Below, one piece after another: positions 9 through 12,863 of a stretch of 22,865 bases of DNA (position 1 is the stretch's first letter; every line of letters starts with the position of its first letter). Origin of the DNA: Rhizobiales bacterium TMED168 (GTDB lineage Bacteria > Pseudomonadota > Alphaproteobacteria > MED-G09). A model generated the notes under the pieces. It was given only the letters and a program-made list of their open reading frames with translations, had not been told where the DNA came from and did not search any database. A program made the translations under genes and the position numbers. The DNA is taken from contig NHHR02000008.1 in assembly GCA_002170885.2 (NCBI GenBank), positions 61,648 through 84,512 of the forward strand, written 5' to 3'.

Positions 9-1439
9 ATGTCAAAAAAAGTAGTTTTATTATTAGAGGATGATGAGTCAATTCAATTAGTAACTTCGGATTTTTTATCTAGTGAGGGTTATATTGTTAA
101 ACCTTCTAAAACCCTGAAAAGTTTGTGGAAGATGATAGAAAATGGTGATGGAGATGTTCTTGTAACAGATGTAATGCTTCCTGACGGCGAATCTTTTGAA
201 ATAATTCCCCAGATTAGAGAAATAAGACCAAATCTTCCAATAATTGTAGTTAGTGCTAGGAATAATCTTCAGACAGCTATTTCATCAGCAGAAAAGGGTG
301 CTTTTGAGTATCTACCAAAGCCATTTGATTTAAATGATTTAGGAGATCTTGTTGGAAAAGCAATTAAGATTAAACCTAAGGAGAAGGGTCAGTCATTAAT
401 TAGAAAAAAAAGTAATGATCTCATAATTGGTAGCTCTAAAATAATGCAAGAAATGTATAGGGTGATAGGAAGATTATCTCAAAATGATCTTACCGTTACA
501 ATTTATGGCGAAAGTGGTACTGGAAAAGAATTAGTTGCAAAAGCACTTCATATGTTTGGAAAAAGATCGAAAAATCCATTTATTGCAGTAAATATGGCTG
601 CTATTCCAAAAGAACTAATTGAAAGTGAATTATTCGGTCATGAAAAGGGCTCATTTACTGGTGCACATCAAAAAAGTGATGGTAAATTTAAACAGGCAGA
701 AAAAGGGACTCTTTTCTTGGATGAAATCGGTGATATGCCTTTAGACGCTCAGACAAGATTATTAAGGGTCTTACAGGAAGGAGAGTATACCTCGGTAGGG
801 GGCAAAGAAAAAATAAAAGTTGATGTAAGAATTATTACAGCTACAAATAAAGATCTTAAGAAATTAATAGATTTAGGAGTCTTTAGGGAAGATTTATATT
901 ATCGATTAAATGTTGTACCTATTGAAACTCCTCCATTAAGAGATAGAATTGATGATTTACCCGAATTGATAGATCACTTTTTAATTAAAACAGAAAAATC
1001 TGGTTTACCTCTAAAAAAAATAGAACGAAATGCAGTTAAAGAGATGATGGTTTATAGTTGGCCAGGAAACGTAAGAGAGTTAGAAAATTTTATTTTAAGG
1101 GTTTCCGCCCTATACTCTGAAGAAACTCTTACAGAATCCATAATTACCTCTGAATTAACACAAATTAAGAATGATAATAAGGGTAATGAAGAGTTGGGTC
1201 TATCAAAAATGATTGATAGATATTTTGAAAAAAATATGGATAAACTATTAAATAAGGAAAGCAATAATATTTATCCAAGTGTTATTGAGAAGGTAGAGAA
1301 ATCAGTTATTACAAAAATTCTTGAATTCACAAAGGGTAACCAACTTAAAGCATCTGAGATTCTTGGATTAAATAGAAATACACTTAGAAAAAAAATCGGT
1401 GACTTAAGTATCGATATAAAGTTAAATGATAAGAATTAA
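9..1439 (+). CDS. ntrC: Nitrogen regulation response regulator NtrC
   Basis: This is a 476-residue sigma-54-dependent response regulator. It should activate nitrogen-assimilation genes in the cytoplasm once phosphorylated by NtrB. A receiver domain (about 1-115) has the acidic pair D11/D12, phospho-acceptor D54, S82, Y101 and K104, the same numbering as enterobacterial NtrC. The AAA+ domain (about 139-370) has Walker A GESGTGKE at 167-174 and the sigma-54 contact loop as GSFTGA at 214-219. A Fis-type helix-turn-helix near 436-470 contains GNQLKASEILGLNRNTLRKK. The receiver-AAA linker and the AAA body match alphaproteobacterial NtrC better than NtrX. The start lies 8 bases into the window, so anything upstream, such as ntrB, is out of view. 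Downstream, where ntrY-ntrX usually follow, an unrelated CoA enzyme follows instead. NtrX is the main alternative, but a separate NtrX remnant lies at 10123. Confidence 0.93.
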   Translation: MSKKVVLLLEDDESIQLVTSDFLSSEGYIVKPSKTLKSLWKMIENGDGDVLVTDVMLPDGESFEIIPQIREIRPNLPIIVVSARNNLQTAISSAEKGAFEYLPKPFDLNDLGDLVGKAIKIKPKEKGQSLIRKKSNDLIIGSSKIMQEMYRVIGRLSQNDLTVTIYGESGTGKELVAKALHMFGKRSKNPFIAVNMAAIPKELIESELFGHEKGSFTGAHQKSDGKFKQAEKGTLFLDEIGDMPLDAQTRLLRVLQEGEYTSVGGKEKIKVDVRIITATNKDLKKLIDLGVFREDLYYRLNVVPIETPPLRDRIDDLPELIDHFLIKTEKSGLPLKKIERNAVKEMMVYSWPGNVRELENFILRVSALYSEETLTESIITSELTQIKNDNKGNEELGLSKMIDRYFEKNMDKLLNKESNNIYPSVIEKVEKSVITKILEFTKGNQLKASEILGLNRNTLRKKIGDLSIDIKLNDKN

Positions 1440-8517: not shown

Positions 8518-10056
8518 ATGGAAAACTTTTATATAAGCACGGCTATTTCATATACTAATGGACCGCCTCATATGGGACATGCTTACGAAATTATTGCTGC
8601 AGACGTTATTGCTAGATTTAATAGGCTTAAAGGTAAAAAAGTTTTCTTTCTTACAGGCACTGACGAACATGGTTTAAAAGTTCAACAAAAAGCCGAAAAA
8701 TTAAATATTACCCCCGAAGAATTGGCCTACAATATGTCACAAATATTTATGAAAATGGCAAAAGAACTCAATTGCTCTAATGATGATTTTATAAGAACTT
8801 CAGAAAAAAGACACAAAAAAGCTGTTAAAGAAATTTGGTTAAAAATGATAAGTAATGGAGATATTTATCTTGATAATTATTCCGGATGGTATTCAGTAAT
8901 TGATGAAGCATTTTATCAAGAGAGTGAGCTTATAAAAAATGATAAAAATGAATATATTTCTCCAAACAACAATCCTGTTGAGTGGCTAGAAGAAAAAAGT
9001 TATTTCTTTAAGCTATCAAAATATCAAAAAAAGCTTTTAAAGCTATACGAAAAAAATGAAGTTTTTATTCAGCCTAAAAGTAGAGCCAATGAGATAAGAA
9101 ATTTTGTTAAAAATGGTTTAAAAGACATCTCTATTTCTAGGAAAGGTTTAAAATGGGGTATCAAAGTTCCAAATGATGAAGATCATTCAATATATGTATG
9201 GGTAGATGCACTTACAAATTACATATCAGCTCTTAATTGGCCCAATGAAGATGATAACAAATTTAAAAGTTTTTGGCCTGCCGATCTCCACTTAATAGGA
9301 AAGGATATAACTCGTTTTCATACTGTATACTGGCCAGCTTTTTTATTTTCTGCAGAAATAGAAATACCTAAAAAAATTTTTGCTCACGGTTTTATTTTAA
9401 ATAAAGGTAAAAAAATGTCGAAAAGTCTAGGCAATATTGAGGATCCAATGGAATTAATTGAGAGCTTTGGAGTTGATCAATTAAGATATTTTTTAATGAG
9501 TGAAACAGTATTTGGAAAAGATGGAAATTATAGTGATGAACTTCTTATTACTAAGGTTAATTCAGATTTATCAAATGATTTAGGTAATTTATCTCAAAGA
9601 TGTTTAACGATGGTTAAAAAACATTGCAATAGTTCTATTCCTAAAAGAGATATCTTAAATACTGAAGATCTAGAACTACTGAATTTATTGGATAAAAAAA
9701 TTGATAAAATTTATTACCATATGAATGATTTTAAAATTAACTCCTATATTGAAGAAGTATTTGAGGTAATTTCTTTGACTAATAAATATTTTTCCGATCA
9801 AAAACCATGGGAACTTAAGGATGAAGATCCTAACCGAATGTATACCGTTCTTTGGGTTACTATGGAAATGATAAGAAAGTTTGGTATCTTGCTTCAACCA
9901 ATAATGCCTGAGTCATGTAAAAAACTTTTGGATCTCTTATGTATTAAAAAGGATAAAAGAGATCTAAATTGTATAGGTAACAAATTTTCTCTCAGGTTTG
10001 GTGAACCAATAAAAGAGCCAACAATTATTTTTCCAAAAATAGAATATAAAAAATAG
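8518..10056 (+). CDS. metG: Methionine--tRNA ligase
   Basis: The 512-residue class I aminoacyl-tRNA synthetase charges tRNA-Met. The HIGH motif is HMGH (18-21), with TGTDEHG just after, and the KMSKS loop is at 299-303. The connective region (SGWYSVIDEAFYQE and VEWLEEKSYFF) has no zinc-binding cysteines, as in other alphaproteobacterial enzymes. There is no C-terminal tRNA-binding (Trbp111-like) domain, which fits the short length. It is the last gene of the run that starts at rlpA. In many alphaproteobacteria tatD follows; here the relict ntrX-trkA-hfq block follows instead, so a rearrangement junction lies between 10057 and 10122. Confidence 0.97.
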   Translation: MENFYISTAISYTNGPPHMGHAYEIIAADVIARFNRLKGKKVFFLTGTDEHGLKVQQKAEKLNITPEELAYNMSQIFMKMAKELNCSNDDFIRTSEKRHKKAVKEIWLKMISNGDIYLDNYSGWYSVIDEAFYQESELIKNDKNEYISPNNNPVEWLEEKSYFFKLSKYQKKLLKLYEKNEVFIQPKSRANEIRNFVKNGLKDISISRKGLKWGIKVPNDEDHSIYVWVDALTNYISALNWPNEDDNKFKSFWPADLHLIGKDITRFHTVYWPAFLFSAEIEIPKKIFAHGFILNKGKKMSKSLGNIEDPMELIESFGVDQLRYFLMSETVFGKDGNYSDELLITKVNSDLSNDLGNLSQRCLTMVKKHCNSSIPKRDILNTEDLELLNLLDKKIDKIYYHMNDFKINSYIEEVFEVISLTNKYFSDQKPWELKDEDPNRMYTVLWVTMEMIRKFGILLQPIMPESCKKLLDLLCIKKDKRDLNCIGNKFSLRFGEPIKEPTIIFPKIEYKK

Positions 10057-10083
10057 AACTTACTAGTGACATAAATAATTATA

Positions 10084-10106
10084 AGTTGTATTAAAGCAAC
10101 TATAAT
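10084..10106 (+). promoter_or_regulatory. Inverted repeat overlapping a consensus -10, upstream of the NtrX-like gene
   Basis: AGTTG (10084-10088) and CAACT (10097-10101) form a perfect inverted repeat with an 8-base spacer. The last base is also the first of TATAAT (10101-10106), a full -10 match 16 bases before the ATG at 10123. No -35 element is convincing. It could be an operator, for instance for autoregulation, or a weak hairpin after metG. Confidence 0.35.
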
Positions 10107-10122
10107 TTTTAATGGTGTAATT

Positions 10123-10338
10123 ATGGACAAATTTTTAGTTATTGATTTAGATATGGATATAAGGACTGCCAGGTCAAACTTTGAAAAAAAATATATTCTT
10201 GCTCAAATTAAAAAATTTAATGGTAATATTTCAAAAACTGCAAAATTTATTGGCATGGATAGAACAGCTCTTCATAGAAAAATGAAAGATTTAAATATTA
10301 TGCCAAATGAACGTTATAGGAATATTATAGGATATTAA
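10123..10338 (+). CDS. Stand-alone NtrX DNA-binding domain (Fis-type HTH)
   Basis: The 71-residue protein corresponds only to the C-terminal Fis-type helix-turn-helix of NtrX. The stretch from residue 13 (IRTARSNFEKKYILAQIKKF) through GNISKTAKFIGMDRTALHRK (34-53) to the KDLNI end matches NtrX C-termini, which I recall as LREAREQFE...GNISRTAEFIGMERSALHRK. Full NtrX has about 450 residues with receiver and AAA+ domains; neither exists here, because metG ends 66 bases upstream. So this is not a frameshifted gene. It sits directly before trkA and hfq, the position of ntrX in many alphaproteobacteria, which supports descent from ntrX. It should dimerise and bind DNA, but it cannot be phosphorylated or activate sigma-54 polymerase. 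A repressor, nucleoid-type or antagonist role is inference. The gap to trkA is 14 bases. Confidence 0.82.
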   Translation: MDKFLVIDLDMDIRTARSNFEKKYILAQIKKFNGNISKTAKFIGMDRTALHRKMKDLNIMPNERYRNIIGY

Positions 10339-10352
10339 TATCAGAGAAAAAA

Positions 10353-11729
10353 ATGCAAATATTAATATGTGGAGCTGGAAAAAGTGGGGCATCTATTGCT
10401 GAAAAATTATCCTTATTAGGTAATGAGGTTACAATTATTGACTCATCTGAAAAACTTGTAAGAAAATTAACAAATAAATTAGATATAAGGGGTATTGTCG
10501 GACATGGAGCACATCCTGATATTTTAGAAAAAGCTGGCGCTAAAGATGCGGATATGATGATAGCAATTACGTCATCTGATGAAGTAAATATGCTAGCATG
10601 TCAAATAGGTCATTCAATTTTCGAAGTTCCTAAAAGAATTGCTAGAATAAGAGATAAGTCTTACCTTGATCCAACTCATCAAGATTTATTTACAAGTGAT
10701 AAATTACCGGTAAGTGTCATTATTTCTCCTGAGAATGAGGTTGCTAAAAATGTTTTAAGAAGACTTGAGATTCCAGGAGCAATTGAAAATATCCCTTTTA
10801 TAAATGGTTCTTTAAAGTTTTTAGGAATAAAAATTGATGATGATTGTCCGATTATTGAAACAGAGATTTCAGAATTAACAAACCTTTTTCCAGATCTTAA
10901 AACTGTTATTGTTGGGCTCCAAAGGGGGAATAAAATGCTTATTCCTAAATCTGATGACAAGATTATAGTCGGAGATATTGCTTATCTTGTATGTCCTGCA
11001 GAATTATCAAAAAGAGCAGTTTCTATTTTCGGACACCCTGAAAAAGAGGCGAGAAAAGTTGTCCTAGTTGGAGGTGGGTCTGTTGGAGGTGAGGTTGCAT
11101 CATTGATAGATACGATGACTGATAAAATTAATTTAACCGTTATAGAAAGTGATGAGAGTAATGCATCGATCTTATCTGACAAATATAAAAATATTACTGT
11201 ACTTAATGGATCAGGGGTTGATAGAGAAATTTTACATGAAGCTGATATAGAAAATACCGAAACATTAGTTTCTTTAACTGATAGCGACGAAGTTAATTTC
11301 TTATCTGCTGCTTTTTCTTCAAGTGAAGGATGTAAAAAATCACTTGCCCTACTTAACACATCAGATTTTCAATCATTAATAATGTCATTAAAAATTGGAG
11401 AGTTTATTGATCCAAAAGCTATAACAATTTCATCTATTCTAAGACATGTCAGAAAAGGCCATATAAAAAGACTTTATTCTTTAATTGATGGTGATGCAGA
11501 AGTTATAGAGGGTGAGGTATCGTCTTCCTCAGAGCTTATTGGACCATCTATTGAAGAGCTAAAATTAGACTCTGGTTTAAGAATTGGCGGAATAATAAGA
11601 AAAGATAAATTTATTATGCCCACCGGGGATACTTATATTAAAGAAGGCGATAATATAGTTATTTTTTCTAAACCTCATTGTATTCACATGGTTGAACAGT
11701 TTTTCAGAATAAGTCCTGATTATTATTAA
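10353..11729 (+). CDS. trkA: Trk system potassium uptake protein TrkA
   Basis: The 458-residue peripheral membrane protein regulates TrkH/TrkG potassium channels. It contains two RCK (KTN) halves. The first begins with the Rossmann motif ICGAGKSGASIAE (6-18) and ends in an RCK-C domain; the second begins with LVGGGSVGGE near residue 238 and ends in another RCK-C domain at the C-terminus (GGIIRKDKFIMPTGDTYIKEGDNIVIF). Both nucleotide-binding halves look intact. No trkH is in the window. The gene lies between the NtrX remnant and hfq, as in other alphaproteobacteria, and is followed by a probable terminator. Confidence 0.95.
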   Translation: MQILICGAGKSGASIAEKLSLLGNEVTIIDSSEKLVRKLTNKLDIRGIVGHGAHPDILEKAGAKDADMMIAITSSDEVNMLACQIGHSIFEVPKRIARIRDKSYLDPTHQDLFTSDKLPVSVIISPENEVAKNVLRRLEIPGAIENIPFINGSLKFLGIKIDDDCPIIETEISELTNLFPDLKTVIVGLQRGNKMLIPKSDDKIIVGDIAYLVCPAELSKRAVSIFGHPEKEARKVVLVGGGSVGGEVASLIDTMTDKINLTVIESDESNASILSDKYKNITVLNGSGVDREILHEADIENTETLVSLTDSDEVNFLSAAFSSSEGCKKSLALLNTSDFQSLIMSLKIGEFIDPKAITISSILRHVRKGHIKRLYSLIDGDAEVIEGEVSSSSELIGPSIEELKLDSGLRIGGIIRKDKFIMPTGDTYIKEGDNIVIFSKPHCIHMVEQFFRISPDYY

Positions 11730-11840: not shown

Positions 11841-12092
11841 ATGTTAAAAGAAAATATTGAAACCCCGGATAATAATTTTTTAGATGATATTGAATCTGAT
11901 TTTATAAAGCATGCAATTGAAAATTCAAAAGAACTTACAATTTTTTTAGTAAACGGAATTAAATTAGAAGGCAATATTATCGCCTTTGGAAATAATAGTT
12001 TTTTATTAAAAAGAGATGAAAATATTCAATTGGTTTATAAACATTCCATTTCTACTATTCTACCCTTAGACTCAACAAGTTTTATTGGCTAA
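11841..12092 (+). CDS. hfq: RNA chaperone Hfq, divergent
   Basis: The 83-residue Sm-like protein should form hexamers that pair small RNAs with mRNAs. The Sm1 strand (LTIFLVNGIKLEG, 32-44) and Sm2 motif (QLVYKHSISTILP, 63-75) are clear. It differs from typical Hfq at RNA-contacting sites. E18 and S19 stand where E. coli has Q8 and D9, I26 and E27 replace the rim arginines 16/17, G50 replaces D40, N52 replaces F42, and F35 replaces Y25. Y66, K67, H68 and K41 are kept. It follows trkA as in other alphaproteobacteria, but hflX is missing downstream. A 110-base leader precedes it, with an unusual run of six G at 11796-11801. The last 4 bases overlap the convergent mazG. Confidence 0.92.
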   Translation: MLKENIETPDNNFLDDIESDFIKHAIENSKELTIFLVNGIKLEGNIIAFGNNSFLLKRDENIQLVYKHSISTILPLDSTSFIG

Positions 12093-12543: not shown

Positions 12544-12571
12544 TTGACATAAAAATGTTAAATATTAAACT
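12544..12571 (+). promoter_or_regulatory. Candidate promoter of the miniature receptor gene
   Basis: A perfect -35 TTGACA (12544-12549) is followed after 16 bases by TAAACT (12566-12571, 4 of 6 matches). A second full TATAAT at 12596-12601 has no good -35. Either would give a short leader ending at the strong ribosome site at 12612. Confidence 0.4.
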
Positions 12572-12611
12572 AAGTTATTGTATTTTTTGTTATTTTATAA
12601 TTTTATTTGTT

Positions 12612-12616
12612 GGAGG
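12612..12616 (+). promoter_or_regulatory. Strong ribosome binding site of the miniature receptor gene
   Basis: GGAGG lies 4 bases before ATG 12621. It is one of the best Shine-Dalgarno matches in the window and selects this start over the in-frame ATG at 12555. Confidence 0.7.
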
Positions 12617-12620
12617 CAAA

Positions 12621-12863
12621 ATGTCAAAATTTTTAAATAAATTTTTATTAACTAACTTTTTATTACTCTCAGTATTATCTTTTGGTAATTTATCTATTAA
12701 TGCACAAGAAACTATTGAAAATTTAAATCCTGTTGAGGAAATAGTTGTTACTGGTTCAAGAATAAAAGGTATCAATACTGATAGTTTTGCCAATGACTTT
12801 GACCCTTCATATAGAACATGGGGATCACAATTTTGGTATGCTAGAGTTTCATCAAGATTTTAG
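12621..12863 (+). CDS. Miniature TonB-dependent receptor (signal peptide, TonB box, last beta strand)
   Basis: The 80-residue protein joins the two ends of a TonB-dependent outer-membrane receptor. Residues 1-29 form a signal peptide (MSKFLNKFLL... ending NAQ), and residues 36-50 include the TonB box-like NPVEEIVVTGSRIKG. The last 20 residues, beginning DPSYRTWG and ending YARVSSRF with a terminal phenylalanine, look like the final barrel strand and BAM recognition signal. The plug and nearly the whole barrel, several hundred residues, are missing, yet both ends are in one frame without a stop. A strong GGAGG site, a candidate promoter and a downstream terminator are present. It may be an in-frame deletion remnant or a small exported peptide with its own role; the sequence alone does not decide. 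It cannot form a receptor by itself. Confidence 0.65.
   Translation: MSKFLNKFLLTNFLLLSVLSFGNLSINAQETIENLNPVEEIVVTGSRIKGINTDSFANDFDPSYRTWGSQFWYARVSSRF

Follow-up and report, generated by a model that had tools for sequence, protein, structure and literature searches.

The window, which is the whole stretch of 22,865 nt of DNA analysed here, carries at positions 10123..10338 a small open reading frame that starts with ATG and encodes a 71-aa protein (MDKFLVIDLDMDIRTARSNFE). We named this gene fisX; like its neighbours, it lies on the forward strand. Upstream, metG (8518..10056; Pfam) ends 66 bp before the fisX start codon, and downstream, trkA (10353..11729; Pfam and NCBIfam) follows after 14 bp, a spacing from which the two are probably co-transcribed. 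hfq (11841..12092; Pfam and NCBIfam) comes next after trkA, and a full-length, intact paralogue, ntrC, occupies 9..1439 (TIGR01818, 578.9 bits; cut-off 558.6). These coordinates agree with the sequence-only reading, which had placed a 71-residue gene before trkA-hfq and 66 bases behind metG. fisX is a real, conserved gene and no chance ORF, because a length-limited search among 5.8 billion proteins returned 65 relatives, many of them 70–73 aa long, and 15 genome records hold the gene in the same place. Among the 24 of these 65 relatives that were aligned, most share the N-terminus MDKFLVIDLDM or a near variant of it.

Elsewhere in the window, a 102-aa ORF at 12555-12863 resembles both ends of a TonB-dependent receptor gene, with the bulk of the gene missing. 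A receptor gene of 936–943 aa occupies the corresponding place, flanked by mazG and oppA, in 9 of the 13 relatives checked (L002 and L003, for example), and no such gene stands there in L004–L007.

Scanning 84,980 species genomes yielded 43 matching loci, 15 of which contain the short gene. The records behind these 15 are titled PS1 clade, OCS116 cluster, Rhodobiaceae, Hyphomicrobiales or only alphaproteobacteria, and it is on account of these labels and of a shared family that we call this group of small marine bacteria PS1. The remaining 28 loci (SAR116, a few Holosporales/Rickettsiales, and unlabelled alphaproteobacteria) harbor an NtrX-type gene. All 15 short-gene loci have the order metG-fisX-trkA, with hfq detected in 14. 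The ancestral ntrX place before trkA-hfq, named by the sequence-only reading, holds up. Within the family of genome G012, fisX sits between metG and trkA in 15 of 18 genomes; the assemblies of the other three gave no match to trkA either, and the fisX region is thus probably unassembled in them. More broadly, the helix-turn-helix (HTH) was matched in 321 of 385 alphaproteobacterial genomes, and among the matches listed, a short frame matched from residue 1 occurred in the five PS1 genomes alone. Two further short frames among the matches listed measure 85 aa (G045; at a contig start and probably a cut gene) and 238 aa (G154).

Pooled within each of three clades (Nei-Gojobori), dN/dS values for fisX were 0.018, 0.017 and 0.055, compared to 0.043, 0.032 and 0.056 for trkA, 0.091, 0.071 and 0.107 for metG, and 0.120, 0.066 and 0.117 for hfq; the exact values are rough due to near-saturated synonymous divergence in many pairs, while the contrast with 1 stands. 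Fifteen of 16 sequences entered this comparison, the most divergent relative (L011) falling outside the three clades. The gene is hence kept by selection and is not decaying, as had been claimed before. Its shortness and fusion-like N-terminus could suggest a dead ntrX fragment with a frame left open by luck, but dN/dS at 0.017–0.055 is nowhere near the value of about 1 that the sequence-only reading had named as a sign of such a fragment, and both length and N-terminus are conserved across the clade; we consider this reading extremely unlikely.

FisX residues 18–56 (10174..10290, forward strand) form a Fis-type HTH that is homologous to the NtrX C-terminus and belongs to Pfam HTH_8 (47.9 bits; gathering cut-off 22). 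The top NCBIfam match of the protein is NtrX (NF051870), at 68.2 bits over profile positions 404–451 of 452, a score far below the whole-protein cut-off of 600 bits. NtrC (TIGR01818) and Fis (PRK00430; cut-off 99) each reached 16.3 bits. The closest PDB sequence is Brucella NtrX (5m7n; E 1.1e-14), and the same protein was the best fold match (E 6e-4; 57% identity in the HTH, 0.6 Å rmsd over 49 columns) of an AlphaFold2 model built from 18 sequences (mean pLDDT 78.5; 83–93 per block for residues 11–60, 59 for residues 1–10). The DNA-binding domain of NtrC4 ranked second, and Fis matched much more poorly (E 0.6 or higher). An NtrX-type C-terminal HTH thus heads the matches in NCBIfam, PDB sequences and PDB folds alike. 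N-terminal beta-hairpin arms are a feature of Fis; none appears in the FisX model, where residues 1–10 are of low confidence. Neither a receiver with a phospho-acceptor Asp nor an AAA+ domain was detected by Pfam in the 71 aa. Derivation from NtrX and loss of its receiver and AAA+ domains, both asserted by the sequence-only reading, are therefore upheld. FisX descends from NtrX but is not one by membership (no receiver, AAA+ or kinase), and it likewise falls outside Fis. A free-standing NtrX HTH was not described in the titles and abstract openings of the open-licence papers listed in the literature searches.

The claim that the gene matches only the C-terminal HTH has to be amended: the HTH match holds, but the first 14 residues also resemble the start of the NtrX receiver. 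Codons 1–14 (10123..10164, forward strand) align with DILIVDDExDIR and probably represent a remnant of it; a start like MASDILIVDDEADIRE is common among NtrX receivers, and the NtrX HTH begins like LPLREARExFE. We compiled profiles of 12 receiver starts and 10 linkers, chosen from 46 NtrX proteins; starts that did not fit the search pattern, SAR116 ones among them, were left out. None of 6634 12-mers from the other window proteins scored as high against the receiver profile as FisX residues 3–14, 18 of 6636 reached the score of residues 3–12 (without the LR common to the HTH side), and the eight residues 3–10 alone gave p 0.019, figures that are somewhat optimistic as the likeness was spotted before the test and SAR116-type starts lie outside the profile. 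In L011, the likeness is weaker (173/6634). The NtrX linker was also considered as a source of the FisX N-terminus and discarded, its fit being at chance level (2346/6636). The simplest history would be that ntrX lost its middle in frame, by deletion between two similar IRE/LRE stretches, and kept both ends, with ntrY lost as well.

A full-length ntrX elsewhere in the genome, which the sequence-only reading had named as a possible sign of a dead fragment, was not found in 17 of the 18 (incomplete) family assemblies, and the NtrX profile cut-off was exceeded in none of the 18. The one true NtrX-like protein (541 bits) is encoded in G001 on an 11-kb contig (G001:C34; L044) together with ntrY and a second trkA. 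We did not accept it as the native ntrX of the family: the second trkA is only 39% identical to the window TrkA, the contig looks foreign, and we read it as binning contamination. This contig is also the sole source of the NtrY domain (PF19312), seen in 1 of the 18 incomplete assemblies. Fourteen other full-length matches were rejected as NtrX and are NtrC instead, being 58–85% identical to the window NtrC and 30–33% to the G001 NtrX. The 18 genomes are single-cell and metagenome assemblies of 0.9–1.4 Mb that come without completeness figures. Full-length NtrC was seen in 14 of them and RpoN in 15; because NtrC itself was missed in four, absence from any single genome is weak evidence, and absence from 17 is stronger.

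The gap between metG and fisX holds a palindrome, GTTGTATTAAAGCAAC (10085..10100, unstranded), a putative operator of the form GTTGY-N6-RCAAC. The window and all 15 relatives, i.e. 16 of 16 upstream regions, carry GTTGTAWTVAAGCAAC in this gap. At 16 bp, the palindrome is one base pair longer than the canonical Fis-type core of 15 bp, and it ends 17–34 bp before the fisX start codon. A –35-like GTGACA (10066..10071, forward strand) precedes it; in each of the 16 regions, RTGACA lies at a constant distance of 13 bp upstream of the palindrome and may serve as a promoter element. Directly abutting the palindrome at its 3′ end is TATAAT (10101..10106, forward strand), an alternative –10 element that is not kept in all relatives. 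The palindrome thus overlaps or abuts the likely core promoter (the exact –10 being uncertain), an arrangement as expected for self-repression. Allowing up to one mismatch, no operator was found in a 20-kb stretch of G012 (C1:378000-397900) that includes ntrC and stops 1.5 kb before fisX.

Near-copies of the site precede ntrY in most of the alphaproteobacterial outgroup loci that encode full-length NtrX. Searching from –200 to +50 of the called ntrY start, we found GTTGY-N6-RCAAC with at most one mismatch in 12 of 16 usable outgroup loci, which stand for fewer than 16 independent lineages since several are near-identical pairs. Nineteen outgroup regions had been fetched, three of which (L223, L228, L230) offered no usable ntrY upstream region. 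Other spacings (N0–N14) gave at most 4 of 16 loci, the reversed motif 4 of 16 at N6 and, whatever the spacing, no more than 6, and 500 shuffles a mean of 0.38 loci and a maximum of 3. In SAR116-type windows upstream of ntrY, the motif occurred in 0 of 19 even at two mismatches, a result that argues against its being common to all NtrX proteins; 16 of these windows are labelled SAR116 and three only alphaproteobacterium, one (L036) is misplaced with a broken ntrY frame, and 9 of the 28 non-PS1 loci were likewise left out.

Three outgroup loci (L215, L217, L218) contain three tandem copies of the palindrome, separated by 3 and 1 bp. The first junction, CAAC-NNN-GTTG, yields CAAN5TTG, the form of a published NtrX motif, CAAN3-5TTG (also given as CAAN2-5TTG), and the Sinorhizobium meliloti ntrY probe of the same report contains CAACACCGTTG (PMC9223101). 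The other published motif, GCAN9TGC (PMC7240162), is compatible with GCAAC-N5-GTTGC. Going by these sequences, both published motifs may be junctions between neighboring palindrome copies.

The motif has 73 occurrences in the 18 PS1 genomes (2–9 sites per genome), 15 of them at fisX and 58 elsewhere. Frames of 80 aa or more contain 26 of these 58; the other 32 are intergenic and comprise 21 sites before TonB-dependent receptor genes (in 13 genomes), eight before gltB and three others. The reversed motif gave 36 sites (31 coding, five intergenic), none before gltB and none before receptor genes, although this control may have overlooked highly divergent receptors, its receptor references being drawn from the loci of the motif sites themselves. 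One receptor and one gltB were checked with Pfam and the rest assigned by BLAST likeness, and the predicted regulon is that of the relatives' genomes rather than the window's own. gltB was found in nine of the 18 genomes: an exact site precedes eight of these genes, and the corresponding position of the ninth holds one that deviates by a single mismatch. By eye, the five clade I gltB promoters continue downstream of the site with 6 bp, TTGCAW, 17 bp and TATATA, an order that would suit an activator. Clade II (G005–G008) yielded a single receptor-gene site among its four genomes; gltB had no match in any of them, reflecting either real loss or incomplete assemblies. That receptors may be an old NtrX target follows from a report that an NtrY mutant of Paracoccus denitrificans had altered levels of TonB-dependent transporters (PMC9409073).

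Some sites have further features nearby. Upstream of the clade I gltB genes (L238–L242), the palindrome directly adjoins a Fur-box-like TGAGAATGATTATCA (in places slightly varied), which hints at combined control by iron and nitrogen. The PII gene (glnK/glnB) was considered as a target owing to three nearby sites and was dismissed: a tRNA-like sequence on the reverse strand (by eye) intervenes, and at L157 a receptor gene stands on the site's other side, so that PII went uncounted. The PII ORF of L157, L169 and L172 measures 169 aa and has an N-terminal extension of ~57 aa without a Pfam match, followed by the P-II domain at 58–163 (one was scanned); the extension looks ribbon-helix-helix-like, which is an impression only.

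This distribution bears on what kind of protein FisX is. A nucleoid-type architectural protein with broad, low-specificity binding, like gammaproteobacterial Fis and as entertained in the sequence-only reading, would fit a free-standing Fis-type HTH below but near Fis size. However, a strict palindrome with so few sites per genome, and with its intergenic copies clustered upstream of two kinds of gene, is hard to square with such a role, as are the low score against the Fis profile and the armless model; we regard it as very unlikely and consider FisX more likely a site-specific regulator that acts on its own gene and on a small set of others. The palindrome could, in turn, belong to a different regulator, either NtrC or some unrelated repressor, with FisX an active protein whose gene is merely one of the targets. 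The persistence of NtrC and RpoN in most of the genomes and the fact that gltB is a nitrogen gene speak for this, but the NtrC consensus differs from GTTGY-N6-RCAAC, the gltB sites stand before σ70-like boxes (by eye), and the recognition-helix sequence of NtrX is kept in FisX and different in NtrC. Moreover, the motif recurs upstream of ntrY, and NtrX of Rhodobacter sphaeroides reportedly binds in front of its own operon and autoregulates (PMC7240162). Binding by another regulator is thus improbable, if less so than the nucleoid-type role. The suggestion that FisX competes with NtrC drew no support from our results.

We favor, at a probability of roughly 0.75, FisX being a phosphorylation-independent mini-NtrX that keeps the DNA site of NtrX and its autoregulation. 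An in-frame internal deletion in ntrX would have left little of the receiver and nothing of the AAA+ domain, fusing the ~14 N-terminal receiver residues to the HTH, and the cognate kinase NtrY would have been lost. With neither phosphorylation nor an ATPase switch, FisX may bind the ancestral NtrX palindrome as a constitutive dimer. At its own promoter, this would probably mean self-repression, holding its level constant; the gltB site just upstream of a σ70-type –35 box and the receptor-gene sites further upstream would rather suit activation or modulation. Unphosphorylated NtrX has been argued to have a key role in Caulobacter (PMC5892882), and loss of the receiver would therefore be tolerable. 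Against the favored reading stand the SAR116-type loci without the site, the few predicted targets of clade II, the differing form of the published NtrX motifs, a site one base pair above the Fis-type core, and the weaker receiver likeness of L011.

More tentatively, and at somewhat less than even odds, the entire NtrYX system may have been condensed into one 71-residue, always-on regulator that inherited the operator, the autoregulation and part of the regulon (receptors and gltB), and whose retained receiver strand took on a new purpose, e.g. in dimerization or in contacting polymerase. The true NtrX dimer site would then be the 16-bp palindrome, with CAAN3-5TTG and GCAN9TGC as junctions of adjacent copies. 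GTTGY-N6-RCAAC would offer a sharper, testable DNA site for NtrX, for which the published motifs disagree. If the favored reading is right, FisX illustrates that a streamlined bacterium of the ocean may dispense with sensing while keeping a regulon. It would further be a plain example of how a large regulator under signal control turned into a free-standing Fis-like protein, a transition caught with operator and predicted targets still visible. The same route has been proposed for Fis itself, from NtrC (Morett and Bork 1998, as cited in PMC11407668).

Among known systems, FisX shares with NtrX (Brucella abortus 5m7n/5m7p) the HTH, the place before trkA-hfq, probably the DNA site and autoregulation, and a receiver-like start of ~14 residues, but lacks the phospho-acceptor receiver, the AAA+ domain and the NtrY partner, and has 71 instead of about 460 residues. 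With gammaproteobacterial Fis it has the free-standing Fis-type HTH in common, whereas its ancestor is another one (NtrX), sequence-level Fis membership and predicted beta-hairpin arms are absent, and its specific sites are few. NtrC, with which FisX coexists in the window, belongs to the same σ54-activator superfamily; unlike FisX, it is full-length and has another recognition helix, and it is not the source of FisX.
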